The notes under the pieces: model-generated
Databases searched by the model: none
What the model saw: the letters and a program-made list of their open reading frames with translations, nothing else
What the model was told of the DNA's origin: nothing
Part shown: piece after piece, positions 3,227-54,833 of the stretch
How the letters are laid out: each line of letters opens with the position of its first letter
Position numbering within the stretch: the first letter of the stretch is position 1
Origin: Clostridia bacterium
GTDB lineage: Bacteria; Bacillota; Clostridia; Oscillospirales; QAKW01
Assembly: GCA_017464525.1 (NCBI GenBank)
Contig: JAFTZM010000010.1
Coordinates: forward strand, 1-64,000
Direction of reading: 5' to 3'
Length of the DNA: 64,000 bases
Position numbers and translations under genes: made by a program

Positions 3227-4330
3227 ATGGACTTAAGTATTCTCTATGAAAACCTTGGCAAGTTCGAATGGTATCATCTGGTGATGATCCTCATCGGCTG
3301 CCTGCTGATCTACCTGGCCATCAAGAAGGAAATGGAGCCCACTCTGCTCCTGCCCATGGGCTTTGGTACGATTTTAGTCAATATCCCCGGCTCCGAGGCC
3401 CTCACCGGCCCCATCTCCGAGCTGTACCATGCGGGTATTGCCAATGAGCTGTTCCCCTTGCTGCTGTTTATCGGCATCGGCGCCATGATCGATTTCGGCC
3501 CCCTGCTTTCCAACCCTAAGCTGATGCTGTTCGGCGCTGCTGCCCAGTTCGGTATCTTCTTTACCCTCTGCATGGCCGCTATGTTCTTCGGGGATATGGA
3601 TGCGGCCTCCATCGCCATCATCGGCGCTGCAGACGGCCCCACCTCCATCGCTGTGGCCAATGCGCTGAATTCCCAGTATGTGGGCGCCATCACGGTGGCA
3701 GCTTATTCCTATATGGCGCTGGTGCCCATCATCCAGCCCCCTGTGATCAAAGCCCTCACCACCAAGAAGGAGCGGCTGATCCGGATGCCTTATGAGCAGA
3801 AGTCCGTTTCCAAGCTCACCCGCATCCTGTTCCCCATCCTCATCACCATCGTGGTTTCCGCATTTGTGCCGCAGGCTACTGCGCTGATCGGCTTTTTGAT
3901 GTTCGGTAACCTGATTCGGGAGTGCGGTGTGCTGGAGCGCCTTTCCGAAACTGCCCAGAATGCGCTGGCCAACCTGGTCACCATCTTTTTGGGGATCTCC
4001 GTCGCCTTCAATATGACCGGTGAAAAGTTCCTGAAGGTGGATACCCTGCTCATCATGGGTCTGGGCCTCATCGCCTTCATTGTGGATACTGCAGGCGGTG
4101 TGCTCTTTGCCAAGTTCCTCAATCTCTTTATGAAAAAGAAGATCAACCCCATGATCGGTGCTGCCGGCATCTCTGCATTCCCCATGTCCGGCCGTATTGT
4201 CCATAAGATGGGCCTGCAGGAGGATCCTCAGAACTTTCTGCTGATGCACTCCATCGGTGTTAACGTTTCCGGCCAGATCGCCTCTGTTATCGCCGGCGGT
4301 ATTATCCTTAAGATCTTCGGAGGTATGTGA
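3227..4330 (+). CDS. Sodium-ion-translocating decarboxylase beta subunit (OadB/GcdB/MmdB family)
   Basis: A 367-residue, multi-pass membrane protein. In this family the beta subunit decarboxylates carboxybiotin and uses the energy to export Na+. Visible signatures are the ion-path motif GAADGPTSIAVA with Asp136, a second broken-helix segment IVDTAGGVLF, and the C-terminal NVSGQIASVIAGG motif. Length and ends agree with full-length family members. Start ATG 3227 follows an AAGGAGA ribosome site. The alpha (carboxyltransferase) and biotin-carrier genes are not in the window, so the substrate cannot be told. The gene is preceded by a metal-riboswitch-like leader, which is unusual for this family, and is coupled to a small gamma-like gene. 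Confidence 0.88.
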   Translation: MDLSILYENLGKFEWYHLVMILIGCLLIYLAIKKEMEPTLLLPMGFGTILVNIPGSEALTGPISELYHAGIANELFPLLLFIGIGAMIDFGPLLSNPKLMLFGAAAQFGIFFTLCMAAMFFGDMDAASIAIIGAADGPTSIAVANALNSQYVGAITVAAYSYMALVPIIQPPVIKALTTKKERLIRMPYEQKSVSKLTRILFPILITIVVSAFVPQATALIGFLMFGNLIRECGVLERLSETAQNALANLVTIFLGISVAFNMTGEKFLKVDTLLIMGLGLIAFIVDTAGGVLFAKFLNLFMKKKINPMIGAAGISAFPMSGRIVHKMGLQEDPQNFLLMHSIGVNVSGQIASVIAGGIILKIFGGM

Positions 4331-4536
4331 TGATGAAAATGTTCGAACTCTTCAGAGCCGCTTTGACCGCCCAGACTGCTGCCGCCGAGGAAACGGCAAA
4401 AATGTTCTTCGAGCCCGGCAGATTTTTGGAGATGCTCCGGTATATGGGTGTTGGGATGCTGATCATCTTTGTGCTGATCGGGATCATTATCCTGGCAACC
4501 CTGGCCATCAATAAGGTTTTTTCCAAATCCAAATAA
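4330..4536 (+). CDS. Small single-pass membrane subunit, OadG/gamma-like
   Basis: A 68-residue protein with one transmembrane helix (about residues 36-58, GMLIIFVLIGIIILATL) and a short lysine-rich cytoplasmic tail. The gamma subunits of Na+-pumping decarboxylases have this layout and anchor the complex. The ATG at 4330 overlaps the stop of the beta gene (ATGA). ATG 4333 is an alternative with better spacing from GGAGGT. A terminator follows 6 bp after the stop. Identity as a gamma subunit rests mainly on position and topology, since these subunits are poorly conserved. Confidence 0.7.
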   Translation: MMKMFELFRAALTAQTAAAEETAKMFFEPGRFLEMLRYMGVGMLIIFVLIGIIILATLAINKVFSKSK

Positions 4537-4542
4537 GTAAAT

Positions 4543-4570
4543 GCGCCGCCTTTGCGGCGCTTTACTTTTT
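4543..4570 (+). terminator. Intrinsic terminator of the beta/gamma operon
   Basis: GCGCCGC (4543-4549) pairs with GCGGCGC (4554-4560) around a 4-nt loop, followed by a T-rich tract. It isolates the retron from upstream transcription. Confidence 0.85.
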
Positions 4571-4589
4571 TTATATAGTATGCTATAAT
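4561..4589 (+). promoter_or_regulatory. Retron promoter with extended -10
   Basis: An extended -10 TGCTATAAT (4581-4589) with a weak -35 TTTACT (4561-4566) at 17-bp spacing. The predicted start at about 4596 lies directly at the a1 repeat of the retron RNA. Confidence 0.65.
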
Positions 4590-4597
4590 CCTCCTAT

Positions 4598-4790
4598 AGT
4601 CTTTCGCAGCAGCGTACACACCGTTTTTGCGGAAAGGGCAGCGAGTCGCTGCTTTGTTGGTTTGCCCGGGAGCATCGCGTTTGTTTTGAAAAACAAACGC
4701 TGCCTGAAAATGCCTCAACGAGCAAAAAAATCATTCCATGATTGTCTGCTCGCCTCGCCATATTCAGGACTTTTCGTGCTGCGAAAGACT
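4598..4790 (+). ncRNA. Retron msr-msd non-coding RNA
   Basis: A roughly 193-nt RNA gene lies just before a retron reverse transcriptase and has the canonical layout. The a1 (4598-4611) and a2 (4777-4790) repeats are perfect 14-nt reverse complements. AGC at 4611-4613 at the end of a1 supplies the expected branching guanosine (4612). The msr part holds hairpins at 4638-4652 (6-bp stem) and 4677-4700 (perfect 10-bp stem, 4-nt loop). The msd part is one long interrupted hairpin 4703-4768: CCTGAA/TTCAGG, ATG/CAT, CGAGCA/TGCTCG and an apical AATCAT/ATGATT stem. The RT would copy msd into a branched RNA-DNA molecule of roughly 65-75 nt of DNA. The boundaries of the DNA are inferred. Confidence 0.87.
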
Positions 4791-4812
4791 TGATTCAGAA
4801 AGGGTGATCCGG

Positions 4813-5808
4813 ATGCGTATAACCGAAGGAACGGTTCGATTTGATGGCTGCGACCGGCATTTTGCCGAAAAATTCGGTGCCCACCAGGCGGCAGAAATGG
4901 TGCTGGATTTCGCCAGCACCAATACCCACCCGTTTCTTTATGACACCTACCAGCTGGCCGCCCATCTGGGGCTTCGGCGGAAGGCACTCTTTGAACTGGT
5001 GCGGCGGCCCGGCCGCCATTACCGTACCCTGCGGATCCCCAAGCGAAGCGGCGGCAGCCGCACCCTCTCGGTGCCGGATGACAGGCTGAAAACGGTGCAG
5101 CGCACGGTTTTGCATACCATCCTCTGCCATTTTCCTGCCTCGGCATATGCCACCGCCTATCAGCCGGGGGCAACGCTTCGGCAAAATGCCGCTCCCCATT
5201 GCGGAAAAAAATATCTGCTTAAGCTGGATCTGGAGGATTTTTTCGGCAGTATCCGTTTCGATCAGGTCTACGGTGCGGTATTTCATACCCGCCGGTTTCC
5301 CAAGCAGATCGGGGCCATGCTGACCGCCCTTTGCTGCAAGGATGATGCGCTGCCTCAGGGGGCGCCCACCTCCCCGCAACTCTCCAATCTGGTGCTGAAA
5401 TGGTTTGATGATACCATGGGGGCGTGGTGCCAAAGGCGGGGAATTGCCTATACCCGCTATTGCGACGATATTACTTTTTCGGCGGATCGGCCTCTTTATG
5501 ATGCTTATCGGAAGGCGGTAGGGCTGCTGGAGCATCAGGGCTTCAGTATTAACGAAGAAAAGACCCGTTTTGTGACCGCTGCCGGCCGCCAGACCGTCAC
5601 CGGCCTTACGGTGAATGAAAAGGTGGGGGTGCCCGCCGATTTTAAACGCGCGCTGCGGCAGCAGGTCTATTATGCTTTGAAATTCGGGGCAGAGCCGCCG
5701 GAATACCGGCGTCTGCTGGGGAAGGTGCAGTTTGTGCTGCAAACAGCGCCGGAGCATCCTTGGTTTTGCGATGCCCGGGAAGAATTGATCAGGAGGTTGA
5801 AAGGATGA
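4813..5808 (+). CDS. Retron-type reverse transcriptase
   Basis: A 331-residue RT that would prime from the branching G of the upstream RNA to make msDNA. It has the diagnostic retron motif NAxxH (NAAPH, residues 125-129), the first catalytic block LDLEDFF (138-144), QGAPTSPQLSN (182-192), the active site YCDD (216-219) and the VTG motif (262-264) that recognises the cognate RNA. There is no maturase, endonuclease or fused domain, which excludes a group II intron protein. ATG 4813 is chosen because it lies 22 bp beyond a2 with an AGAAAGGGTG site; the open frame extends back to 4738, but that would start inside the msd hairpin. It overlaps the next gene by 4 bp. The likely role is phage defence or another stress response, by analogy. 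Confidence 0.93.
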   Translation: MRITEGTVRFDGCDRHFAEKFGAHQAAEMVLDFASTNTHPFLYDTYQLAAHLGLRRKALFELVRRPGRHYRTLRIPKRSGGSRTLSVPDDRLKTVQRTVLHTILCHFPASAYATAYQPGATLRQNAAPHCGKKYLLKLDLEDFFGSIRFDQVYGAVFHTRRFPKQIGAMLTALCCKDDALPQGAPTSPQLSNLVLKWFDDTMGAWCQRRGIAYTRYCDDITFSADRPLYDAYRKAVGLLEHQGFSINEEKTRFVTAAGRQTVTGLTVNEKVGVPADFKRALRQQVYYALKFGAEPPEYRRLLGKVQFVLQTAPEHPWFCDAREELIRRLKG

Positions 5809-6389
5809 AACTGTATGTGATCCGCCATGGAGAGAGTGAGGCCAATGCGGGGAAATTTTTCTCTGGCTGGGCCCCCGTTGCTCTTACTCCCAAGGGGGAG
5901 GATGATGCCCGTGCCGCAGGGGAGCTGATCCGCCATATTCCTTTTGATAAGGTCTATAGCAGCGATATCCGCCGGGTGATCCAGACTCAGCAGCTGGCGC
6001 TGCCCGATGCCGATTGCGAGCGGACCCCGCTGATCCGGGAATACAACGTGGGCAGCCTGATGGGCAAGAACCTGCAGGATTGTGCCGAGACCATGGGCGA
6101 GGCATTTTTGAAAAACCGTGCCGCCTTTGATTTTACGCCCTATGGCGGCGAAAGCAACGATATGGTAGACGCCCGGGTGGCAGAATTCATGAGGATGCTG
6201 GAGCAGACCGATTATGAAAATGTGGCGGTCTTCAGCCACGCCGGCACCATTCGCAGTATCATTGATTATGTGCTGGGTGTCCGTACTCCCCGGAATGCCA
6301 CGATCCTCCTCAATGGAGCGGTCAGCGTCTTTGAATTCATAGAGGATCATTGGCGGATCCTGATGCTGAATTATACCAAGGAACTATAA
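5805..6389 (+). CDS. Histidine phosphatase (phosphoglycerate-mutase-like), coupled to the retron RT
   Basis: A 194-residue protein of the histidine phosphatase superfamily. It has the phosphohistidine motif RHGE (residues 7-10), an SSDIRRVIQT segment, an acidic YGGES region and the second catalytic histidine in SHAG (about residues 145-148). Members hydrolyse phosphate esters of sugars, nucleotides or proteins; the substrate is unknown here. ATG 5805 overlaps the RT stop codon (ATGA) and has AGGAGG 9 bp upstream, so the two are translated as a unit, and a terminator follows. Known retrons pair RNA and RT with an effector, and this is the only other gene in the unit. It may be the effector, or a housekeeping gene caught by chance. 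Confidence 0.85.
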   Translation: MKLYVIRHGESEANAGKFFSGWAPVALTPKGEDDARAAGELIRHIPFDKVYSSDIRRVIQTQQLALPDADCERTPLIREYNVGSLMGKNLQDCAETMGEAFLKNRAAFDFTPYGGESNDMVDARVAEFMRMLEQTDYENVAVFSHAGTIRSIIDYVLGVRTPRNATILLNGAVSVFEFIEDHWRILMLNYTKEL

Positions 6390-33043: not shown

Positions 33044-33616
33044 TTTCAGGCTGCAGCGGATGACGGTGTAGTCCAGATTATAGGTGTTTCTGGCGAAGAG
33101 GGTCAGGTCTGCATCCCGGCTCAGGTTTTCGGCAGAAACATCTTTTGTTTTTTCAATGGCGGTCACGGTGAAGCGATACCGACCGCCGGTCGTGTCGGTC
33201 ACATAGACGGTATCGCCGTTGGTGACGGTTTTGGTAAAGTCCAATTGTCCCGGGGCGTCGCTGCCGCCGATGATCAGGCTGTTATCGTAAAGGCTTCCCG
33301 TGTATCGGCAAGGGTATCTGGCCACCGCGGCTGGATTCCAATGGGCGTAGAGGGGTAGTGTTGTTCCGTAGGCAGGGAGCTCCATCACCCCGGCAAAATC
33401 GGTGCCCTCCACCTCCAGCAGGGGCATGGCGGGATCGGTGCGGCCGTCGGGGGCGGTATCCTGCACCTCCGGCATCAGGGCAAGCAGCTGGGTGTAAAGG
33501 GCATCGGCCTTTTCGGCTGCCTGCTTTTGAAAGACTTGGGTGCCAAAAACCGCAAGAACGGCAAGAAGGATCAGCAGGATTCCAAGTATCAGCGGGATCC
33601 GGGTTCGTTTTCTCAT
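33041..33616 (-). CDS. Sortase-fold protein lacking the catalytic triad (pseudo-sortase)
   Basis: A 192-residue protein with one N-terminal membrane helix (about 8-28) and a sortase-like beta-barrel. The places of the active site are recognisable but changed. The SLIIGGSDAPG segment (113-123) replaces the usual AGHRG-type histidine motif. LTLFARNTYN (171-180) replaces the TLxTCTPYG motif, so the catalytic Cys is lost, and the downstream Arg is also absent. A sole Cys near the C-terminus (188) is not at the catalytic site. It starts by ATGA overlap with the minor pilin gene and ends the pilus operon, which includes an intact sortase C. A structural or scaffold role in pilus assembly is inferred. 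Confidence 0.78.
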   Translation of the reverse strand: MRKRTRIPLILGILLILLAVLAVFGTQVFQKQAAEKADALYTQLLALMPEVQDTAPDGRTDPAMPLLEVEGTDFAGVMELPAYGTTLPLYAHWNPAAVARYPCRYTGSLYDNSLIIGGSDAPGQLDFTKTVTNGDTVYVTDTTGGRYRFTVTAIEKTKDVSAENLSRDADLTLFARNTYNLDYTVIRCSLK

Positions 33617-34521
33617 ACTTCTTTTCTCCTGTTCCAAAGGGCGAGGAGCACCAGCAGACCGCCGGAGAGGCACATAGCCAGCAGATAAGGCCAGAGCACA
33701 AAGGTATCACCTGTATTGGGTGGGGGACTCTCTTCTCCGGGCGTTTCACTTTGATAGGCGTTGGTAATGGTGATGGTGGTACTGCTTTCGGTAACGGTCA
33801 CGGTGTAATCGCCTGGGATCTCCCGCTCCACCGCTTGCCATTTGCTGCCGTCGTCCTCTGCCGACCAGCTGTAGCACCAGTTATTGGCCGCCGAAAGGGT
33901 TTGAGTAGATTGCAGAACACCGTCCTTCAGGATCTCGATCTGAACGCTTTCCGGGCGTTTTTCGGGGTATTCGCTATCCTTCCATTGCTTGACCACCTTG
34001 TAGTTCAAAAGCTCCGGCCGCAGGCTGAAGCTCCGGCTTTTGGGATAGGCTGTTACACTGTATAGCGGCTCTTCGTTTTCATTGGTTTGGGGGATGACGG
34101 TGAGAACATCCTCGAAAACCACCGTTTCGGTTCGGACCGATTGGGTCAGGTACATTCCCGGCCGGATGCCGGAAAAGAAGACTCCGCCGGTCTCATCGGT
34201 GGCAGCCTTGAAGGTGGGGGCCAGTTGATCGGCGGTGGCGTAGGCCGAAAGGGTGGAGGCAATGTTTTTCCACTCCTCCCGGGTGGTGATGCCGTAGATA
34301 TTGACCGGATATTTTTTGAACTCTCCGGTGAGAGCAAAGGTACCGTCTGCAAAGACCTCGGCCACCCGAAAGGTTTTTACAGTAAGTCCCGGAAAGACCT
34401 GCTCTCCCCGGCGGTATTGCAGGGTCAGGGAGGCTTCCCGCTGGGGATCGATGGGCGCACCATGGGCGGTGGCGGTGAAAAACAGCAGAAAAATACAAAG
34501 AAAAGCAATGATTTTTTTCAT
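33613..34521 (-). CDS. Minor pilin / cell-wall-anchored pilus subunit
   Basis: A 302-residue surface protein: signal peptide (1-21), an N-terminal domain (about 22-160), a pilin motif VTAYPKSRS (about 155-163) whose lysine is the usual sortase cross-linking residue, a Cna_B-like domain (about 165-255, ending TVTVTESSTTITITNAY), and a C-terminal sorting signal PPNTGDT followed by a hydrophobic helix and NRRKEV. This matches the basal/minor pilins of sortase-built pili. It overlaps the sortase C gene upstream and the pseudo-sortase downstream by 4 bp each. Confidence 0.88.
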   Translation of the reverse strand: MKKIIAFLCIFLLFFTATAHGAPIDPQREASLTLQYRRGEQVFPGLTVKTFRVAEVFADGTFALTGEFKKYPVNIYGITTREEWKNIASTLSAYATADQLAPTFKAATDETGGVFFSGIRPGMYLTQSVRTETVVFEDVLTVIPQTNENEEPLYSVTAYPKSRSFSLRPELLNYKVVKQWKDSEYPEKRPESVQIEILKDGVLQSTQTLSAANNWCYSWSAEDDGSKWQAVEREIPGDYTVTVTESSTTITITNAYQSETPGEESPPPNTGDTFVLWPYLLAMCLSGGLLVLLALWNRRKEV

Positions 34522-35378
34522 GATAATAAATCTTTACCTGCGCTTTCTTTCTTGATGGGTTTAAAAAGGACGATCAGCATCAGCACCAGCAGCATGGGCA
34601 GCGCAACGATGGGGGTGACGATCAGAACATCGATCTGGTAAGCGTCGGAGGTCAAATGGATGTGCTTTTGCTCCACGGTCTCGATCCGCTTGCCCCGTAC
34701 CAGCAGCCGGTCGGTGTTGATGCCGTAAGGGGTGCAGGTGAGCAGGGTGCAGAGATCCTCCCCCGGTACGATGGAAAGCTCCTCCATTTTGTTGGGGGCT
34801 ACGATCCGGATCTGATCCACTTGATAGGTCAGGGTCCGATCCAGAATGGTGACCTGAAAGGTGTCGCCCACCTCCATCCGGTCCAGATCGGTGAAAAGCT
34901 TGGCGGAGGGTAAGCCCCGGTGGGCAGAGACCACCGCATGGGTGCTCTCGCCGCCGATCGGTAGGCTGGAGCCCTCCAAATGGCCGATGGCCACATTCAG
35001 GATGGAATCATCGGTGCCGTGGTAAAGGGGCAGCTCCACCCCGATCTTACCGATGGTCACATAGCCCATCATGCCGTTGCCGTTCAGGTTCAGGGTCTCG
35101 TGATAACCGGCCACATTGGTATATTCCACCAAAGGAAAATCCTTGGCGTAAAGGCTTTTGTTATATTGTTCTGCAGCGGCAAAAAGCGCGGTGTAATCCG
35201 CCTCCGGAATGTATTCCAGCATGGTTTCGTAGTCTACGATGGCCTCCGATTGGGTACGCTGGTTCCAGAAGTTGCTGAGGGATGGGTATAACATTACGGA
35301 GAGGCCCACAAAAAATATCAAAAGCAATAAAAATGTGGACCATTTATTATTTTTTTTCTTTTTTTCAGGTGTGTTCAT
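34518..35378 (-). CDS. Class C sortase (pilin polymerase)
   Basis: A 286-residue membrane transpeptidase that links pilins through the sorting signal threonine and pilin-motif lysine. It has an N-terminal membrane helix (about 14-31), the catalytic His153 in SAHRGLP, Cys215 in TLLTCTPYG and Arg225 in DRLLVRG, and a second C-terminal membrane helix (about 250-272) typical of class C. The residues before the core (about 40-60) may hold the lid. It follows the major pilin by 81 bp with a strong hairpin between, and overlaps the minor pilin gene. Confidence 0.95.
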   Translation of the reverse strand: MNTPEKKKKNNKWSTFLLLLIFFVGLSVMLYPSLSNFWNQRTQSEAIVDYETMLEYIPEADYTALFAAAEQYNKSLYAKDFPLVEYTNVAGYHETLNLNGNGMMGYVTIGKIGVELPLYHGTDDSILNVAIGHLEGSSLPIGGESTHAVVSAHRGLPSAKLFTDLDRMEVGDTFQVTILDRTLTYQVDQIRIVAPNKMEELSIVPGEDLCTLLTCTPYGINTDRLLVRGKRIETVEQKHIHLTSDAYQIDVLIVTPIVALPMLLVLMLIVLFKPIKKESAGKDLLS

Positions 35379-35395
35379 GGGTCTCTCCCTAATTC

Positions 35396-35438
35396 CGCCC
35401 CGGGAAGGGAGGAATGAAATAGTTCTTCCCGGGGCGGG
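35396..35438 (-). other. Strong hairpin between major pilin and sortase C
   Basis: CCGCCCCGGGAA and TTCCCGGGGCGG form a 12-bp GC-rich stem on the mRNA, in the 81-bp gap. No T-run follows on the minus strand, so it is not a plain terminator. It could stabilise the pilin message or lower sortase expression relative to pilin. Confidence 0.6.
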
Positions 35439-35459
35439 TTGCGAAGTGTGCGGGGTTAA

Positions 35460-36872
35460 TTATGCCATTTTGGACATTCTTTTCTTCGCGATCAGAAGAA
35501 TGCCGGCGCCGATGACCAAAATGCTGCCGATGACAGTGAACAGCACGGTACCGATACCGCCGGTCTCGGGCAGGATGGAACCGGTCTTGTTTACGATCTG
35601 AACGCCGGTGCCAGCCTTATAAGCGCTGTTTTCCTCGGTGGCCTTCAGGTTGGAGGATTCAATTTTGAAATCTTTCCGGGCGGTCAGCTTGTTGTAGCCT
35701 TCGGGAGCAACGGTCTCTTCCAGATAGTAAGTAGTGCCGCCGTCCAGACCGGTAATGGTCGCTTTGCCGCCGGTAACTTCGATGGCTACGCCGGGTTCGA
35801 CGTCTTTGGCTACACGGTAGGTGCCGTCTGCTTCCTTCACAACTGCGATCTCTTCACCGCCAGTAGCTGCAGTATAAAGTCTGAATTCAGCACCGTCCAG
35901 CAGCTTGTTGTCTGCATCGGTCTTAACAAGATCGAACTCGTAGACGTAGGTATAGGTGAAATCGTGGGTGGTTTCGTTATTATCGCCGTATTTCAACCAG
36001 GTCTCGTTGTAATTGCCATCACCGGCAATATCTGCATCATCGTTGAGATAAGCAGTGTATTCTACAACGATTTCCTTTCCTACTGCCAGAGATGCAATAT
36101 AAGTATTATCAAAAGCAATCTCAAAAGCACACCCATCAGTGGTGCCGGAGGCAGTCACAGTATAGCTGGCTTCGGGAACAGTAGTACCATCAACTGTTAT
36201 GGCGGTGATAGCGGTATAGGTCAGGCCCTTCTCCATCTTATCGTGCAGAACATAGTTTTGGGCACCCTTCTGAACGGTGATGGTGGTTTTGAAGTTTACA
36301 GTCTGATAAAAATCAGCGTCGTTGGTCTCGCCCCATTCTTGGGTAGAGTCCTCCTGGACTTCCTTCTTTACTTCGGGCTTCGCATTCTTCTCCTGAACGG
36401 AAGCGTTGGGATCGGTCGTGGTCAAACCGCAGAACGCACCGAGGGAAGAATCAACCAGATAGTAGCCAAGGCCCAGCTCGCTGAAAACGATCTCTTCATC
36501 ATCAGCTGCGGCGGTTTTGGCTTCGCCCGTCACAGCGATCTTGTTGTTCTTAGCATAAGCCAGGGCGTCCTTGGCCAGCTGAGCGGAGGCATTCGCATCC
36601 AGCGTTACGCCGTCCTTCAGGGATACATACCCGTCAACGATCTGGAAGTACTCGCTTTTGCCGGTGAAGAAATTCACCCATGCCGTTACAGGCTTATAGG
36701 AATAAGCACTGTCTTCAACATAGCTTTCCAGGGTTGCCATCTGGTATACAGAGTAGGCTTGGTCTTTCACGGTATTAGTGATCGTAATAGTACCGGTGGT
36801 GTCTGCAAAGGTGGGGGCGCACAGGGCGCAAACCATCAATACAGCGCAAAGAATTGCTAAAAATCTTTTCAT
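35460..36872 (-). CDS. SpaA-type major pilin with LPETG anchor
   Basis: A 470-residue pilus shaft protein. Signal peptide about 1-23 (cut near TFA-D). An N-terminal domain about 24-165 leads to a lysine-rich NAKPEVKKEV stretch, the likely place of the pilin-motif lysine. An isopeptide-type middle domain follows (about 175-310), then a SpaA/Cna_B domain (about 315-435) with the E-box YYLEETVAPEGYNKL. The end is LPETGGIG plus a membrane helix and a basic tail. It lies between the tip adhesin and sortase C in a minus-strand operon and would be polymerised by that sortase. Confidence 0.93.
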   Translation of the reverse strand: MKRFLAILCAVLMVCALCAPTFADTTGTITITNTVKDQAYSVYQMATLESYVEDSAYSYKPVTAWVNFFTGKSEYFQIVDGYVSLKDGVTLDANASAQLAKDALAYAKNNKIAVTGEAKTAAADDEEIVFSELGLGYYLVDSSLGAFCGLTTTDPNASVQEKNAKPEVKKEVQEDSTQEWGETNDADFYQTVNFKTTITVQKGAQNYVLHDKMEKGLTYTAITAITVDGTTVPEASYTVTASGTTDGCAFEIAFDNTYIASLAVGKEIVVEYTAYLNDDADIAGDGNYNETWLKYGDNNETTHDFTYTYVYEFDLVKTDADNKLLDGAEFRLYTAATGGEEIAVVKEADGTYRVAKDVEPGVAIEVTGGKATITGLDGGTTYYLEETVAPEGYNKLTARKDFKIESSNLKATEENSAYKAGTGVQIVNKTGSILPETGGIGTVLFTVIGSILVIGAGILLIAKKRMSKMA

Positions 36873-36942
36873 GTTTCCTTTTTCCTTTCGTTAATTTGTT
36901 TTTATTTCCGGAAGTGTTCTTGGCACAAGCAATTTGCCGCGA

Positions 36943-39900
36943 TCAGAGGCTTTTTTTCAACCTCCTTTCGCGCTTGTGCCTCAACACACATCCGCATATC
37001 AGGGAGAGGACCACGATCAACGCTCCCCCGAATATGAACACTTGACTGGCATAGCTGCCGGTTGACGGCATTTCAGCGCCGCCGATGTTTACAAACGATG
37101 CGGTGGCATCGTTTTCCAAGGTACCTTCCACGGTGTTGCTCGGCTGCGGAGCAGCGCCATCGCTGCTGCATTCGGTGAAGAATCCATCGGTTTTTTGTTC
37201 CTTCACCGACCACACGGTGCCGTAAGGCAGGCCGTATACGGTCATGGAGTCTGCATCCTGCAGGTAGAAGGTGGCGATGCCCTCGGCAAACAGGATCTCT
37301 GTCTGCCCGTTAGGGCCGTCGCAAGCAAACCGTCCGTTGAGTGGCGTGCCATCGTGGGAGGCAACAACATCAAAACGGAAATGCTGGTTGGTTTCGGTGC
37401 GCTCCACCGTTTTGGTAACGGTCAGGTTGCGCACATTCCGGTTGGTAAAGGCCAGCGCATCGGCGGGCTCGGTACCGTTTTTCAGAATTGCGGTCACGGC
37501 GGGGCTTACAGTACCGTTTTCTTCGGTTACCGTAACCGCAAGGATGTAGAAGTCGGTGTCTATCCCGTTTTTTCCGGTGGCTCCTTCCTCTGCCACTATG
37601 TAGTAGTGGTCTCCGGCAGGCGTATCCTCCGGGAAATTTAAGGTCAGATTTGCGGCGGCGGCGCCCTCAGCCATGGTCACAGAAGTTTTCAAATATTTGC
37701 CGCCCTCTGCAAAGCTATGGTCCGTGAGGGAGACGATCTCCCGCAGATAGAAGGTAAATTCATATTCCCGGCCGTCGGGGTAAAGGAGGGTCTTTTCCAC
37801 CGGGATGTTGGTCTTAACGCCTGTTTTATCGTTGGTCACTCGGATGGTAGAGGTAAGTCCGGCGCCGATGGCTCCGGCTGCCCAGCCATCGGCCTCGCTC
37901 AGCACCAGCTCCTCGCTGGTGTAGGTCACGGTGTAGCCTGCAGCGGAGGAGGGATCTTCCTGCAGCGCCACCACCGAGCCGGCCAGAATGTTTTCCAGCC
38001 GCACCGTCTGCCCGGCGGCAAAGGTGAGCTTGCCCTCTTCCGTTACCGTGCCGGGGATCTCGGTGCCGTCGGCCAGGATCAGGGTGTAGGCGGTGCCGGC
38101 GGCCAGGGGCTGCTCATCCAGCGTGATGTTAAAGGTCACTTCCTTCGCCGCTTGATCTGCGGTATAATCCAGAAACTCTTTGGTCAGCTCCAGAGCGCCG
38201 TACTGCTTGGTATCGATGCTGTTGGTAAAATGGAAGTCGGTGTTGCCGAGGACGGTGTTCCGCAGATCACTTTCTGCGCCCTTGAAGGTGCCGGAGCTGA
38301 TCACAATATCGGAATAGACATCCCGGGTGACACTTTTTCCGTCGATGGTCACCTCCCCGTATTGGGAGGAGATGTTGGTGGGAAATACCTCCCGCACAAA
38401 GAAATCATCTGCATCTGCCGGCACATGATGGAAGATGGCAGTTTGATTGGCTTTAAGCTTGAAAATACTGTTTTCATCGGTATATTCTGTGGCGATCTCA
38501 TTGCCGTGGGCATCCAGAACGGAATAGGGTTCTCCGGGACCGAAGAGCAGATCCACACCGTTTTCCCGGTAGACCTGGAAATAGAAGTCCGGATCTCCCA
38601 ATACCTCCGGGGCCAGATCCCCGCTGAATTCCTTGGTGACCGAAACATAGTGCTTGCGGATCATGGGAATGTTGAAATTCATTTCGCAGACACCGGAACC
38701 GGCACCGCGCTCCATGTAGTAAAAATTCAGCGTGTGATGGGAATAGTCTTCGAAGGCTCCTATTTCGTTCAGCCCCTCTGTGCTGCCCAGAATCTCCGCA
38801 AAGGTCACCACCATGGAGGGGGTTTCGGAAATGTGACCGGTGGAAACATCCAGGTCGTAGTAAAAGACTTCGCCGGTGGTAAAGTCGATGGTGCCGCCCA
38901 CATGGCGATGAATGCCGGAAAGATCCAGGAAAAGCTGGCCGTCCACATAGATCCACACATCATCGTCGCCGATAAAATTAAAGATCATCTCCTGCTGGCC
39001 GTCCAGACCGGTCAGGCCGTCCTTGGGCTGCATGAAATCCAGATGCATATCCATGCCGAAGAAGAAATCGGTGGCTTCATCGTAATCGATGGAATAGATC
39101 AGATCCAGATAATCGTCGGTCTGGTTAAATTCAATGCCATTCAGGTCAAAATACACCTGTAGGGCTTCATTGTAGTCCCAGTTGGCAGCGCCGAATTTAT
39201 TGTCCATCAGGCTGATATAGGCGGTGATGGAATTATAGAGAGTCAGGTATTTGCTGCCCTCGCCGTTGTTATAACGAAAGAGCGCATTGGCGGCCACCTT
39301 CTGGAACCAGGCCCGGTCGATGGTGGTGGTCTGGGTGGTCTGGGCTTCAATGTCGTTGAAGGGTAGGAAGTTCCCAAAGGGATACATCAGGAAGTTAGAG
39401 GAGATCAGTTGCTTATACAGCACAAAGGTATCGGTCTCCGGATCAAATTGCGCATGATTGTTCCGGGAATTGAAGTGGTAGGCTCCGGTCTCCATATCCC
39501 GCCAGAAAAGCCCGTTGATATTGGTTTCGTTCTGTTTTTCGGCATAAATATTATCGCTGAAAAGGTACGCCAGGCTGGTGCCGTCGGCTAGGGCGGGGTA
39601 GCCGTCCTGCAGGGTAGAGAGCATGGCATCGCTGATGGGACTGTTGGCTCCGTTGGTCGTTTTGTTGATGGCCGAAGGATTGTTGGTGGTCACATTCCCG
39701 ATCTGGGTGGCCAGATCTACGGTGATGTTATTGCCGAAGTTCATGCCGAACCGGCTCAGGGAGGAGACGCTTTTGGTACCGCCGTCCTGCTGGAAGCCGG
39801 GGTATTTGGAATTGCTCAGGTACGGCTCGTTGATATTGGAGCCGTAGTTATAGAGGTTGATGTCGATCAGCTCGGAGGTGTCGGCGCTTTCTACAATGGT

Positions 39901-41376
39901 CAGCTTGTCCTTGTTGATCTCTGTATTGTCCTCCCCGGAGGTGGGGCCGGTGGTAAAGGTGACGGTCCCGATGGGCGAGGTGGAGGCCTTTGTGGTTTTA
40001 TAAAAATTTGCCGGGTTGACTGAAACAGAGTGGCCGGCCTCTACATCAGCAATGTTCAGGCGGTCGGTATCCCCGTGCCATACCAGCAGAATGAAGCCAT
40101 CGGCGGTGGCGGGCTCAAGGCTTAATTTGGAGCCCACCGAGCGGTATACGGCGCTGACATACAGGCCGGTCTCGTTTTTATCGATCACGATGGCATCCCA
40201 ATAGGAATAGTCCAGATAGGAGGTCATGACCTCCCGGACGGAGCCGCCATAGGAAACGGTAGTGAGGGCGTTGCTGTATTTATTGGCCTGAAAAACATTG
40301 ATGGAGCTTACTGTATCGTTGCTCATGGTGGCCGCCTGCCATAGCCAGCTGAGCGCATCCAGCTTGGAGGTGTCCTCAATGAGGATCTGCAGCCGGGGCC
40401 CCAGATCTTCGTAGTAAACATAGGCGGTGGTGGCCCGGAGGGAAAGGTTTTGATACCAGGCCTCGAACTCCGGAGAATCCATGTCGAAGCTCTCCATCTC
40501 CGCGAACACCTCATCCTCTGTGGGCAGAGCGGCAATCTCGGCTTTCACATTTTCCAGCTTGCCCTTTTCCCACTCGGTCAAGGAGCGCTCAATGGCAGAA
40601 TAGATGCTGCCGTAGCACAGGATGCGGGGATCTGAAAGCTCATAAATAAGCATTTCCACCTGATCGTTGCTGTTGCCTTGAATGACGGTGATGGCAGAAT
40701 CAATGGCGGTGATGATGCCGATATCGGTGCAGCTGCCCTTTCCGGCAGGATCCAGAAAAACAAGATCGCCGATCCGGGGGGAATAGCCGGCAGCCTCTGC
40801 CGCCAGCCCCTCTGCCTGCCAGGCGGTCAGCATGGCGTTGGCACCGGAATTATAAGGGACGATATCTCCGGTGATGCCGCCGTAATGGAGGCAGAAGGAG
40901 GCAAACATTGCCGACCAATCGCCGTAAGGATTGCCGTACCATTCGCCGTAACGGGTATACCCCCGGCGGCTGCCGTCCTCATTCAGCATATAATTGAGGG
41001 TACTTTCTCGGTATCCCAGCTGGCTTTCGGCAATGGCGGCAATATCTTGCCCCGCCTCGCCGGTCAGGGAGATCTCTGCAAAGGTGGCCTCCCAATCGGA
41101 GGCGGTCTCCAGATCCGCCGTATAGTTGGAATAGCAGGTGGCGATGTGGATATGCTCTTCCTTGCCCTCGGAGCAGGTCAGCCCATCGGCCATGCAGGCT
41201 TCGCTGTGGGTGTGCTCGCTGAGGCCGCAGAAGGCCTCGCCGGCCATGGTGATACCGACGATCTTCAGCCACCAGAACACGCCAACGATCACCACCAGCG
41301 AAAGCAGTAACAAAAGCGGTGTGCGACTGCGGAATGCTCTTTTATTCAGTTGTAAGGATTCCTTCACCGCTTGCAA
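36943..41376 (-). CDS. Giant pilus tip adhesin: degenerate CHAP domain, fibro-slime domain, Cna_B-like repeats, MPSTG anchor
   Basis: A 1477-residue surface protein. The start is TTG 41376 behind AAGGAGAAG. A membrane/signal helix lies at 19-40, then a Cys/His motif (HTHSEAC, HIHIATC; about 54-81). Residues about 108-235 look like a CHAP amidase, but the catalytic Cys is Ser155 (DWSAMF) and the His of the HVGI motif is Asp218 (DIGI). A fibro-slime/PA14-like domain around 740-900 carries FIGDDDVWIYVDGQLFLDLSG. Several Cna_B-like domains follow (about 920-1420), then MPSTG, a membrane helix and a basic tail. It probably caps the pilus and binds host or food glycans. Confidence 0.88.
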   Translation of the reverse strand: MQAVKESLQLNKRAFRSRTPLLLLLSLVVIVGVFWWLKIVGITMAGEAFCGLSEHTHSEACMADGLTCSEGKEEHIHIATCYSNYTADLETASDWEATFAEISLTGEAGQDIAAIAESQLGYRESTLNYMLNEDGSRRGYTRYGEWYGNPYGDWSAMFASFCLHYGGITGDIVPYNSGANAMLTAWQAEGLAAEAAGYSPRIGDLVFLDPAGKGSCTDIGIITAIDSAITVIQGNSNDQVEMLIYELSDPRILCYGSIYSAIERSLTEWEKGKLENVKAEIAALPTEDEVFAEMESFDMDSPEFEAWYQNLSLRATTAYVYYEDLGPRLQILIEDTSKLDALSWLWQAATMSNDTVSSINVFQANKYSNALTTVSYGGSVREVMTSYLDYSYWDAIVIDKNETGLYVSAVYRSVGSKLSLEPATADGFILLVWHGDTDRLNIADVEAGHSVSVNPANFYKTTKASTSPIGTVTFTTGPTSGEDNTEINKDKLTIVESADTSELIDINLYNYGSNINEPYLSNSKYPGFQQDGGTKSVSSLSRFGMNFGNNITVDLATQIGNVTTNNPSAINKTTNGANSPISDAMLSTLQDGYPALADGTSLAYLFSDNIYAEKQNETNINGLFWRDMETGAYHFNSRNNHAQFDPETDTFVLYKQLISSNFLMYPFGNFLPFNDIEAQTTQTTTIDRAWFQKVAANALFRYNNGEGSKYLTLYNSITAYISLMDNKFGAANWDYNEALQVYFDLNGIEFNQTDDYLDLIYSIDYDEATDFFFGMDMHLDFMQPKDGLTGLDGQQEMIFNFIGDDDVWIYVDGQLFLDLSGIHRHVGGTIDFTTGEVFYYDLDVSTGHISETPSMVVTFAEILGSTEGLNEIGAFEDYSHHTLNFYYMERGAGSGVCEMNFNIPMIRKHYVSVTKEFSGDLAPEVLGDPDFYFQVYRENGVDLLFGPGEPYSVLDAHGNEIATEYTDENSIFKLKANQTAIFHHVPADADDFFVREVFPTNISSQYGEVTIDGKSVTRDVYSDIVISSGTFKGAESDLRNTVLGNTDFHFTNSIDTKQYGALELTKEFLDYTADQAAKEVTFNITLDEQPLAAGTAYTLILADGTEIPGTVTEEGKLTFAAGQTVRLENILAGSVVALQEDPSSAAGYTVTYTSEELVLSEADGWAAGAIGAGLTSTIRVTNDKTGVKTNIPVEKTLLYPDGREYEFTFYLREIVSLTDHSFAEGGKYLKTSVTMAEGAAAANLTLNFPEDTPAGDHYYIVAEEGATGKNGIDTDFYILAVTVTEENGTVSPAVTAILKNGTEPADALAFTNRNVRNLTVTKTVERTETNQHFRFDVVASHDGTPLNGRFACDGPNGQTEILFAEGIATFYLQDADSMTVYGLPYGTVWSVKEQKTDGFFTECSSDGAAPQPSNTVEGTLENDATASFVNIGGAEMPSTGSYASQVFIFGGALIVVLSLICGCVLRHKRERRLKKSL

Positions 41377-41395
41377 TTACTTCTCCTTGTTATTG

Positions 41396-41471
41396 CCTTG
41401 CAAGGATAAAGCGAGTGAAAATACCCGAAATATACCGCTTTGAGGCGGGTTCGGATATCTCGCTCTACCCT
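41396..41471 (-). repeat. Second copy of the palindromic repeat (left 76 bp), inside the pilus operon
   Basis: Reverse complement of 928-1003 with about five mismatches. It occupies the gap between the signal peptidase stop codon, which it touches, and the ribosome site of the adhesin. In the pilus mRNA it would fold as CCGC-CTCAAA-GCGG nested in further arms. Confidence 0.75.
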
Positions 41472-42051
41472 ACTTTACAAACGAAAGCTTTGATAAGGGC
41501 CAGACCCGGAAAAGGATCTTGCCGATCATCTGATCATCGGTCACACATCCGATCACCGAATTTCGGCTGTCGATGGAGGTGTCTCGCTGATCTCCCATAA
41601 GAAAATACTGATTTTCGGGGACCTGATAGGGAAAGTCTATATCACAGTCTCCCAAGGCCTTAGTGATCAGATAGGGCTCTTCGATGGCGGCGCCGTTCAC
41701 ATAGACCGTGCCGTCGCTTTTGATGTCGATGTAATCGCCGGGGGTGCCGATGACCCGCTTGATCAGCGTTTTGTTGGAATAGGAAAATGCGCAGAGGTCG
41801 CCCCGTTTCAGACGGTCGGTCTTGATCAGCACCACGATATCCCCTTCCACCAGGGAAGGCTCCATGCTGGTACCGGTGATCTGCACTACCGGCAGCACCA
41901 GGGTGGCGATCAGCACCGCAATGGCGGCCACGATGATCAGGGCATAAACGGTGCTTTTGATCACCTGCTTATATCGCAGTTTGTAATTTTCCCGTTTCAG
42001 TTCTGCCCGGATGGCATCGGTGGTGGGCATCTGTTTTTTATTGATCGCCAT
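41470..42051 (-). CDS. lepB: Signal peptidase I of the pilus operon
   Basis: A 193-residue type I signal peptidase. One membrane helix (about 35-60) precedes the catalytic serine in ITGTSMEPSL, the general-base lysine in LIKRVIGTPGD, and the conserved GDQRDTSIDSR box. The enzyme removes signal peptides of exported proteins; in this place it is probably devoted to the pilins, like SipA-type peptidases of streptococcal pilus islands, which are sometimes inactive, whereas here Ser and Lys are both present. ATG 42051 follows AAGGAGAAGAAG and overlaps the upstream gene by 14 bp. Confidence 0.92.
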   Translation of the reverse strand: MAINKKQMPTTDAIRAELKRENYKLRYKQVIKSTVYALIIVAAIAVLIATLVLPVVQITGTSMEPSLVEGDIVVLIKTDRLKRGDLCAFSYSNKTLIKRVIGTPGDYIDIKSDGTVYVNGAAIEEPYLITKALGDCDIDFPYQVPENQYFLMGDQRDTSIDSRNSVIGCVTDDQMIGKILFRVWPLSKLSFVK

Positions 42052-42433
42052 CTTCTTCTCCTTGATCAAAAAACTCATTGAGCTTGGCATCGATCCGGGC
42101 CATCATCTCCGGGGAAAGAGGGGATGGCCGGGGAGTATCCTCCCAAACCGGCTCCTGCCGGTTCACAGGAACGGGAGCGCCCTGCTTCTCGCTCATCCGC
42201 TTGACATTCACAATGTATTGGGAAGCAGCGGCTTCGGCGGCTTCGAATACTCCGTTGAGCTTTAAAGCTGCTTCTGCAATGGAACCGGCCTCACTGGCGG
42301 TGATGGATCGGTTCGCCAGCTGCCTTTCCGCTGCTGCCAGCTTTTCCTGCAGATAGTTGACGCGCCTGGTCTGCTCCAGCAGCAGTTCCAGCAGCTCTTT
42401 GCGGCTTAATTTTTTTAAGTCCTTTTCTGTCAT
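42038..42433 (-). CDS. Coiled-coil protein opening the pilus operon
   Basis: A 131-residue cytoplasmic protein. Residues about 3-50 form a coiled coil (LSRKELLELLLEQTRRVNYLQEKLAAAERQL), followed by a conserved-looking AGSIAEAALKLNGVFEAAEAAASQYI helix, then a Pro-rich linker and a short acidic C-terminal helix. Similar small proteins accompany sortase-pilus operons in other Clostridia; the function is not known. It is the first gene after the promoter and its stop overlaps the signal peptidase start. ATG 42433 is chosen as start. Confidence 0.72.
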   Translation of the reverse strand: MTEKDLKKLSRKELLELLLEQTRRVNYLQEKLAAAERQLANRSITASEAGSIAEAALKLNGVFEAAEAAASQYIVNVKRMSEKQGAPVPVNRQEPVWEDTPRPSPLSPEMMARIDAKLNEFFDQGEEDGDQ

Positions 42434-51449: not shown

Positions 51450-51486
51450 TTGTTGATTGTGTGCATATTATTAAATTTAGATGGAA

Positions 51487-51625
51487 GCTGAGCCTCTGTT
51501 GCGCAGTTGCCTGCGTTTTTTGCTCTCAGCCTAACGACTCCCGCCGAAGGGACTTCCGCCGAGTCTTTCGATGATCCCTTTCCTCGTCACCTGCTCTGAA
51601 TCGGTTAAATTGCAGGCCGGGCGCT
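51487..51625 (-). ncRNA. glmS ribozyme (glucosamine-6-phosphate-activated), without glmS
   Basis: Read on the minus strand, the sequence follows the glmS ribozyme core: cleavage site A|GCGCCCGG (between 51625 and 51624), GTGACGAGG (51590-51582) with the catalytic guanosine (51588), ATCGA, CTCGGCGGA, the P3 partner TCCC, then GTCGTTAGGCTGAG and the P4/P4.1 end GCAGGCAACTGCGCAACAGAGG. The known RNA self-cleaves with glucosamine 6-phosphate and so lowers glmS expression. Here no glmS or other ORF lies downstream on this strand; the next item is a palindrome and then the 3' end of the converging thyX operon. All core elements look intact. Confidence 0.9.
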
Positions 51626-51661
51626 TGTTTTTTATGCTTATTTTACCTCCAAGTGACCAAA

Positions 51662-53314: not shown

Positions 53315-53537
53315 GTTCCGACCTCCTTTTCTAATAAGTATTATAGCAGACGTTCATGAACTATTCAATGAAAATCTTCGCTATTTGTAATAAAAAATAG
53401 ACAATCCGACTAAAATTAACCACATAGTGTTAAATAAAAACAACATCATGTTATCCAATCGTGGACGGTTTGATGTTATAATACTAATATCTAAAATTAT
53501 CGCAATGATTCTGCCGCAAAGGCGGAAGGAGGCAACC

Positions 53538-54833
53538 ATGAATAAGAAATGGACAAAATTGATCGCATTGGCCACCGTCATCCTCGTATCGGTGATGATG
53601 CTGGCATCCTGCCAGACCGGCAAGACCTATGTGGATGAACCGGGCAACGCGGATGTGGTTTCCGTAAAGCAAAAGAACCAGATCCAGGAAGTGGAGTATA
53701 CCGGCGATCCCAAGCCCAATATTGAGTATACCGACGATCCTGCTTATGCGGATACCAGTACCAACGGCGGCAGCACCGGCGATGATACTACCGGCGGCGA
53801 TACTACCGGCGGCGATACCACCGGCGGTGATACTACCGGCGGCGATACCACCGGGGGAGACACCACCGGCGGTGATAACTCCGGCAGCTCTGGCGCAGAT
53901 GGTGATGAATATGCCGCTCTGGTTGCTGATACCAGTGGTACTGCCATTCGTTTCATGAGCCAGAATATCCGTACCGGCAGTTCCCTGACCGGCACCGGCG
54001 ACGGCGAGAACAACCAGATCGGTTACCGCCGCTATCGCTTCAAGGCTCTGGTGGAGAAGTATGATCCCGATGTGATCTGTACCCAGGAGGTTACCCCCCT
54101 CTGGATCGAGCAGTTCAACAATCTGCTGGGCAGTACTTATAGCATGGAATATAAGATGCGTTCCGATAAGAGTAAAGAGGCCACCCCTGTTCATTGGAAG
54201 ACCTCTAAGTATGATATGGTGAGCGTTGAGCACTTCTGGCTCTCCTCCACCCCCAATGTGGAAAGCTCCTGCTACGGCGAGACCGGTATCCCCGGCCGTA
54301 TCACCACCTCTGTTACCCTGAAGGATAAGGCCACCGGCTCCAAGTTCACCGTTCTCTCCACCCACTTCGGTCTGGGCGGCGGCGCAGTTGTAATTGGTTC
54401 CGGTAACCAGATAGCCGATATGTTTGCTAAAATGCCCAAGGGCACCTATGCCTTCGTTCTGGGCGATTTCAACGATAAGTATCAGAGTACCGAGTACTTC
54501 ACCTACTGCGATATGGAGCGTCTGGTAGACCTGCGGGATATCTGCTCCGATATGGCTGATGTGGGCATCGGTAAGATGGGTGATCTGAGAAACGGCTCGT
54601 TCAACGGCTTTAATGTGGCCGCCGCAGACGGTGGCAGCTACATCGATCATGTTATGGCAAAACCCAATGCCAAGATGGCGGTAGAATACTATAGCGTTCT
54701 TTACGATCAGCTGGGCGATGATGCCAATGGCGCACCTGTGGGCTATATCTCCGACCACTTTGCTGTGATCTGTGATGTGCGGATCGATACTACCCCGTCC
54801 TATAAGGCCTTCTATGGCGACAATGTTGTTTAA
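53538..54833 (+). CDS. DNase I-like (EEP family) lipoprotein with GGDTT repeats
   Basis: A 431-residue lipoprotein. The signal peptide ends with the lipobox LASC (about residues 21-24). A Gly/Asp/Thr-rich linker with five GGDTT units (86-110) leads to an endonuclease/exonuclease/phosphatase domain (about 130-420). The domain motifs are MSQNIR, TQEV (metal Glu), STHF, GDFN, a YIDHV segment and the final SDHF catalytic histidine. Members cleave phosphodiesters or phosphomonoesters in nucleic acids or lipids; as a surface lipoprotein it may degrade external DNA or inositol lipids. ATG 53538 follows GGAAGGAGG. A paralogue follows after a terminator. Confidence 0.88.
   Translation: MNKKWTKLIALATVILVSVMMLASCQTGKTYVDEPGNADVVSVKQKNQIQEVEYTGDPKPNIEYTDDPAYADTSTNGGSTGDDTTGGDTTGGDTTGGDTTGGDTTGGDTTGGDNSGSSGADGDEYAALVADTSGTAIRFMSQNIRTGSSLTGTGDGENNQIGYRRYRFKALVEKYDPDVICTQEVTPLWIEQFNNLLGSTYSMEYKMRSDKSKEATPVHWKTSKYDMVSVEHFWLSSTPNVESSCYGETGIPGRITTSVTLKDKATGSKFTVLSTHFGLGGGAVVIGSGNQIADMFAKMPKGTYAFVLGDFNDKYQSTEYFTYCDMERLVDLRDICSDMADVGIGKMGDLRNGSFNGFNVAAADGGSYIDHVMAKPNAKMAVEYYSVLYDQLGDDANGAPVGYISDHFAVICDVRIDTTPSYKAFYGDNVV
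53793..53867 (+). repeat. Five tandem 15-bp units (GGDTT) in the EEP lipoprotein
   Basis: Five near-identical 15-bp units encode GGDTT, with a diverged unit on either side. The units are multiples of three, so slippage would change only linker length. They form the spacer between lipid anchor and enzyme. Confidence 0.85.

Follow-up and report, generated by a model that had tools for sequence, protein, structure and literature searches.

Architecture of the retron locus

The window analyzed in this study, a stretch of 64,000 nucleotides (nt) from a Clostridia bacterium (contig JAFTZM010000010.1, positions 1 to 64,000), carries at 4561-5808 a locus that an earlier inspection of the DNA, hereafter the original prediction, had put forward as a complete and apparently undescribed retron, namely an RNA with msr and msd parts between two repeats, a1 and a2, followed by a reverse transcriptase (RT) gene. 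All the features that can be checked from sequence supported a complete retron, and they are arranged as follows.

4561..4589, plus strand: promoter-like site with an extended -10 element (TTTACT-17-TATAAT), 8 nt before a1
4598..4611, plus strand: a1, the 5' half of the a1/a2 stem (inverted repeat, covarying stem)
4612..4612, plus strand: presumed branching guanosine, in CAGC (4610-4613), the A and G of which are invariant in 15 aligned RNAs
4621..4632, plus strand: msr hairpin 1 (fold; covarying pairs)
4635..4655, plus strand: msr hairpin 2, a 9-bp stem with a 3-nt AGT loop and the GCGAGTCGC core at 4641-4649 (fold; covariation)
4677..4700, plus strand: hairpin 3, between the msr and the msd hairpin (fold; poorly aligned between loci, its pairs uncounted)
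4703..4776, plus strand: msd hairpin and template up to a2, for a reading of 74 nt of multicopy single-stranded DNA (msDNA); base stem 4703-4708/4763-4768, apical 6-bp stem
4663..4776, plus strand: alternative msd extent of 114 nt, its stop spaced from hairpin 2 as in the Escherichia coli retron taken here for Ec107
4777..4790, plus strand: a2, the exact reverse complement of a1
4813..5808, plus strand: retron RT of 331 amino acids (aa) with NAAPH, YCDD and VTG (motifs, PADLOC, homologue alignment, structure model)

As originally predicted, AGTCTTTCGCAGCA at 4598-4611 is the exact reverse complement of TGCTGCGAAAGACT at 4777-4790; each occurs a single time within the 64 kb, and an inverted repeat of at least 14 bp arose within 4534-4812 in 1 of 1000 dinucleotide shuffles. 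The RNA between a1 and a2 was predicted to fold at -77.1 kcal/mol into the layout first described. G4612, which had been pointed out within an AGC at the end of a1, lies immediately 3' of the repeat within CAGC, one of the branching-guanosine contexts given in a 2019 review (PMC6868368), and we infer that it would be the branch point. The two msr hairpins and the msd hairpin with its 6-bp apical stem were found as proposed, together with the hairpin at 4677-4700, which had been overlooked. Hairpin 2 with GCGAGTCGC is presumed to be the recognition or docking element of the RT, because its 9-bp stem and 3-nt loop resemble the stems of 8-9 bp with a 3-nt loop that the RTs of Eco1 and Eco3 require in order to bind (PMC6868368).

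The expected 65-75 nt of DNA in the msDNA agrees with the 74 nt read from the msd hairpin alone, but about 114 nt, read from the spacing in Ec107, is a second reading. The longer one depends on the name Ec107, which we take to mean a DNA of 107 nt: counted back from a2 in the E. coli locus, 107 nt place the stop 14 nt past the hairpin-2 core, and the same spacing in the window therefore gives 114 nt.

The extended -10 promoter that had been described just ahead of the RNA is present, with TG before the -10 hexamer, although the scan by itself was no better than chance, 1 site being observed in 2.2 kb against a mean of 1.9 in shuffles. Since the single-site scan did not exceed chance, support for the promoter comes from conservation of the -10 element: of the 19 core loci described below, 17 have a TATAAT-like hexamer, with no more than one mismatch, in the 25 nt preceding a1, against a background of 12%. 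A terminator-like hairpin (4543-4560) directly precedes the promoter-like site, and the RT starts, as had been stated, 22 nt past a2 at the ATG of 4813, with AGAAAGG upstream.

Conservation of the RNA among relatives

Besides the window, the core set of 19 loci took in 13 loci of genomes, 4 of genome contigs and 1 of a phage record, their RTs being 43.0-55.6% identical to that of the window. Loss of the a1/a2 pairing in close homologues, which the original prediction had named as evidence to the contrary, was not encountered: all 19 loci keep the repeat, which is 10-20 bp long and stops 17-43 nt ahead of the RT, and the reading as a retron is not refuted, the 10-bp repeats of L140 and L145 not being significant taken singly.

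Covariation was scored, and a covariance model (R1) trained, on 15 of these loci; L006 and L140 (shorter RNAs), L142 (a near copy of L141) and the divergent L151 were left out of the alignment, and R1 recovered all four. On the 15 loci, both partners varied in 35 of 47 pairs, and pairing holds in 93.7% of cells, compared with 77.3% in shuffles and 35.9-44.3% with the partners slid; the slide control is biased in favour of the structure, which was taken from the alignment being scored. Two-sided changes were seen in 14 of the 15 pairs of the a1/a2 stem, in all five aligned pairs of hairpin 1 (three of which the window fills, as CCG/CGG, with gaps at the other two), in three of the nine pairs of hairpin 2, the inner three of which are invariant, in five of the seven pairs of the msd base stem, where just 79.6% of cells pair, and in 8 of the 11 pairs of the inner msd stems. 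The helices of the window RNA are thus held by compensating changes, and the RNA is real and old.

In the larger RT clade described below, GCGAGTCGC was found near the RT start at 46 of 60 loci, two of the 62 having too little upstream DNA to be counted. An Rfam search returned no family at the gathering threshold for the window retron RNA, and three sub-threshold minus-strand matches (E 0.73-0.92) look like chance.

Conservation of the RT and its N-terminal module

NAAPH, YCDD and VTG are all in the window RT, as had been claimed, and the predicted structure adds a retron RT fold to these motifs. Across the clade, YxDD is intact in 62 of 62 RTs (YCDD in 56, YSDD in 5, YGDD in 1), while simple patterns located NAxxH in 55 (four match elsewhere first and three not at all) and VTG in 57. 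The ratios of nonsynonymous to synonymous substitution rates (dN/dS) for six RT pairs were 0.080, 0.105, 0.125, 0.154, 0.198 and 0.274, the last being that of L141/L142, the sole pair from the window's own branch; two pairs involving L010 are non-independent, and L046/L051 is near saturation (dS 1.86). By the dN/dS of these six pairs, the Ec107-like RTs are under purifying selection, and with YxDD intact throughout the clade a relic is unlikely.

Ahead of the RT core, F10, D14, F17, G22, P40 and F41 are common to the 26 homologues aligned (of 120 listed proteins), and residues 2-36 form a beta hairpin and two helices, with high confidence, in the structure model. At E ≤0.01, residues 1-48 have matches in 18 of the 19 core loci; against 42 further RT frames of the clade and 47 from outside it, no match was obtained (best E 2.8). 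Some outside RTs align from window residue 3-11, merely within a long alignment, and the alignment of the E. coli RT starts at window residue 59, its own residue 28. These comparisons point to the N-terminal 45 or so residues as a module peculiar to the window's branch of 19 among the RTs compared. A new fold for the N-terminus was considered and is not shown by residues 1-24 of the model being covered by few chains (VIA-align).

Kinship with Ec107 and other retrons

A tree of 106 RTs, from 109 loci less L054 (a 67-aa fragment), L100 and L104, placed the window and Ec107 in a clade of 62 with support 100/98, and the window in a 19-row subclade with support 100/100. The E. coli comparison copy, an RT locus between pyrE and slmA in strain UK_Dog_Liverpool, was taken for Ec107 (Retron-Eco5) because its site, YCDD and replaced palindrome fit the published account, according to which Retron-Eco5 carries YCDD and has taken the place of 34 palindromic bp (PMC6868368). 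Its RT is 44% identical to that of the window over 290 columns, likewise with YCDD, its RNA measures 194 nt against 193 nt, both RNAs contain the 9-bp hairpin with GCGAGTCGC, and neither locus has a partner gene. The E. coli RNA has a 17-bp a1/a2 stem and its branching G in TAGC, whereas the window has 14 bp and CAGC; the window further differs in an RT about 45 residues longer at the N-terminus, a third hairpin before the msd hairpin, a Clostridia host and another site. RT-DNA of Eco5 has been reported, as has an effect of RNase H1 on its length (PMC8989520).

The RNA comparison agreed with the tree. The 15 training loci of R1 include no Enterobacterales genome, one of them being a faecal contig whose host is unknown. 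In a search of 92 sources (58 rows), the model recovered the E. coli retron RNA in full length, with E 1.3e-7 and 8.4e-9; Yokenella gave E 7.2e-7 and Leminorella 6.6e-4. Beyond the training set and its copies, 29 loci gave a full-length match at E <1e-3, and among the 24 loci of two control groups, partial matches were obtained just in L050, L038 and L052 (E 0.012, 0.012 and 0.27).

At L050:5712-5751, a GCGAGTCGC hairpin, the partial match at E 0.012, stands before the RT of a partner-bearing group, so that the GCGAGTCGC hairpin may predate the Ec107-like clade. L050, which is included in our set of RNA-positive loci, lies outside the 62-RT clade.

In PADLOC, the top model for the window RT was RT_Ec107-like (PDLC03739; 358 bits), which matches it from residue 49, past the N-terminal module, and which is also the top model for the RTs of E. 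coli, Yokenella and two other tested loci. Type III-A RTs (RT_III-A) came next at 279 bits. The sister RT clade, presumably type III-like, has an upstream partner of about 290 aa at 7 of 14 loci; the window has none, and the conserved partner genes expected of a type III retron are not present there. Retron-Eco1 (Ec86) scored far lower for the window RT, at 136 bits, and has a cis accessory protein (PMC8989520), whereas the window retron has no shared partner. The a1-msr-msd-a2-RT order for which the original prediction had cited Ec86 is upheld as a layout, but the nearest known retron is Ec107, at 44% RT identity, and not Ec86. Retron-Bth1, which makes RT-DNA with no apparent effector gene, is described as lying on an extrachromosomal element with an RT split by a group II intron (PMC12548924); its likeness to the window, in the lack of an apparent effector, is by published description and not by RT comparison.

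The retron is undescribed at most as this copy, its type being catalogued in PADLOC as RT_Ec107-like. Within the searches made, it thus appears to be an unreported intact member of the catalogued Ec107 type and not a new type.

Neighbouring genes and the search for a partner

The flanks were compared by blastp clustering of open reading frames (ORFs) of at least 60 aa, within a span reaching 1.5 kb to the left and 1.2 kb to the right of the RT, for 62 clade loci, 52 of which have full flanks. Seven groups of three or more loci were obtained. The largest is an ABC protein at 6 loci, at positions from -1121 to +1077, with three near -300 and two of these collinear. Each of the other six has 3 loci; an AraC-like regulator, a sigma-factor-like ORF and a helix-turn-helix-like ORF (names by eye) are among them, and the remainder are an ORF seen near L036, L141 and L142, and a pair of genes belonging to a single ychF-like site. 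No group had a consistent place and strand among the 62 loci, collinear sites excepted, and the flanks of the 19 core loci are unrelated by look, except between L141 and L142, which are near copies. The same clustering recovered in the sister clade the protein of about 290 aa at 7 of 14 loci and one of about 104 aa at 6, upstream and on the same strand. Ten further control loci had the former at 7, having been picked after the partner was seen there; beside the sister-clade figure, the unbiased one is 13 of all 54 non-Ec107-like loci. Within this sample, the Ec107-like clade has no shared partner gene in cis.

In L030, L031 and L033, titled Tenericutes, Mycoplasma and Bacilli, the retron stands beside the same ychF-like gene (named by eye), a common site. 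The gene that follows the window RT is this one.

5805..6389: histidine phosphatase (PF00300, E 2e-39)

Its closest equivalog, alpha-ribazole phosphatase, falls below the cut-off. As an effector of the clade it was not supported, no relative standing beside any other RT among the 108 loci compared or the 62 clade loci.

Distribution and insertion site

A related RT is carried by 373 of 5426 complete E. coli genomes, and 373 cover at least 80% of a 2-kb pyrE-RT-slmA query; given these equal counts, the E. coli site looks constant, with no sign of movement. The E. coli retron (L154:3281-4582) occupies the place of the 36-bp palindromic spacer that K-12 has at the pyrE-slmA position (L156:592-627). 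It also has, by eye, its own terminator-like hairpin past the RT.

At the level of the order, 7 of 394 genomes, the window's own included, have the RT at E ≤1e-75; it is absent from the 11 other genomes of the family at E ≤1e-60. No empty site was found for the window: the sister genomes are collinear with it just to about 4541, keeping the decarboxylase beta gene described below, and several of them the small ORF as well, but they do not match it downstream, and the genus mates of G126 match G126 at the right flank alone. A mobile-element context for the window RT was also considered and rejected, RTs of viral contigs being at most 37% and those of plasmids at most 39% identical (E limit 1e-40). 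Phage records gave 34-35% in three cases and 48% in one closer match, L115, a 4.7-kb unannotated faecal contig for which "Bacteriophage sp." is the record label and the flanks were not examined for phage genes.

Other features of the window

Upstream of the retron lie a sodium-pumping decarboxylase beta gene (3227-4330) and then a small ORF; a second, oxaloacetate-decarboxylase beta-like gene in the genome (G000:C26:1719-2672) is 54% alike to the former. Elsewhere, the window holds a glmS ribozyme on the minus strand (51477-51636; 86.8 bits), a minus-strand region at 33613-42090 with an ORF of 1477 aa and smaller secreted- or membrane-looking proteins, pilus/sortase-like by eye, and a tandem repeat at 53774-53885 (15-bp unit, 7.5 copies) inside the ORF 53427-54833.

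Discussion

Taken together, these results argue with good confidence that the locus is an Ec107-type retron, a self-contained RNA-RT cassette that would make a branched msDNA and belongs to a clade with no shared partner in cis. In the working proposed for it, one promoter would probably serve both RNA and RT, the RNA likely starting a few nt before a1. After a1 pairs with a2, the RT would likely dock on the GCGAGTCGC hairpin and prime on the 2'-OH of G4612, copying backwards from template position 4776 until it stops inside the RNA. The copied RNA would then be removed by host RNase H, so that the msr RNA stays attached to a DNA strand of 74 or about 114 nt.

Several points weigh against this proposal. 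The production of msDNA, its ends and its function are predictions from sequence. The neighbour test is blind to proteins below 60 aa and to partners that vary by locus, and in L040, L045 and L078 an ABC-transporter protein is encoded some 300 bp ahead of the RT. Nine of the 62 clade rows have neither the exact motif nor an R1 match at E ≤0.01 near the RT; among them, the sequence of L011 and L026 begins near the RT, L018 and L023 have a changed motif, and no RNA was found for L016, L025, L040 and L045. In the ninth, L027, the RNA is 1.7 kb upstream of the RT, with a GH25 gene in between. Finally, the ATG of the histidine phosphatase overlaps the stop of the window RT by 4 bp (ATGA), and the two could be a working pair.

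The intervening DNA of L027 (L027:4050-5786) holds, besides the GH25 (lysozyme-family) gene, which overlaps the RT frame, a further ORF; the gene is absent in the sister L024 and is possibly a captured one.

The alternative that survives best, though we regard it as unlikely, is that of a selfish or tolerated effector-less retron whose msDNA serves the element alone. It accords with the single copy, the unrelated neighbours at most loci, the replacement of the 36-bp palindromic spacer in E. coli and the sparse distribution both there (373/5426) and in the order (7/394). The dN/dS values of 0.08-0.27 and the intact catalytic residues argue instead for use, with the qualification that a selfish element needs its RT too, and no sign of movement was seen in E. 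coli, where the RT and whole-stretch counts coincide. Much less probable is a tripartite retron in which the histidine phosphatase is an effector held in check by RT and msDNA: the 4-bp overlap, the Shine-Dalgarno-like AGGAGG inside the RT end and the strong PF00300 match would suit it, but no matching ORF neighbours the other RTs compared, PADLOC gives no match, and relatives of the phosphatase (38-42%) occur in 2 of the 11 other family genomes, none of the 11 having the RT at E ≤1e-60. Decay after loss of an effector, which the shared partners of sister-clade RTs might suggest, is highly improbable, given that each of the 19 core loci has both the a1/a2 repeat and an open RT frame, that all 62 RTs keep YxDD, that purifying selection is seen and that the RNA model spans Clostridia to E. 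coli. That the inverted repeat simply regulates the RT gene, as an ordinary riboregulator or attenuator in a structured 5' leader could, and is not itself reverse transcribed, is next to inconceivable given the retron-type NAxxH and VTG of the RT and the layout of a published msDNA producer, whose RNA R1 recovers.

As for the function of the Ec107-type retron, we favour, with somewhat less than even confidence, action in trans, because the clade has no shared cis effector and yet its RT is kept by selection. The RT-msDNA complex would act on a host protein encoded elsewhere, as a sensor, decoy or inhibitor, perhaps in phage defence. More tentatively, and on balance doubtfully, the Ec107 type may be an effector-less class extending from Clostridia to Mycoplasmatota and Enterobacterales, its RT and msDNA working alone or with a host protein encoded elsewhere; in the window's branch, the N-terminal module, which Ec107 lacks, would then contact this partner.

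The 2019 review treats cassettes of RNA plus RT as "standard" and puts retrons with accessory ORFs at about one-third of those annotated (PMC6868368). Since these cassettes and Retron-Bth1 precede the present case, partnerless retrons as such are already in print; a literature survey of titles and abstract openings found no statement that Ec107-like retrons lack a partner. The points of interest are the N-terminal RT module and the absence, over the whole of the sampled clade, of a cis effector in common. The clostridial RNAs provide diverse templates and a covariance model for locating the class, and such compact RT-RNA pairs might serve for DNA production within cells of Clostridia. In the recent view, retrons are mainly three-part phage defences composed of an RT, an msDNA and a toxin. 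The present clade has selected RTs and covarying RNAs with no shared cis toxin, and the E. coli copy makes the role of the msDNA testable; if true, an effector-less class would break the rule that retron defence needs a cis toxin of its own.
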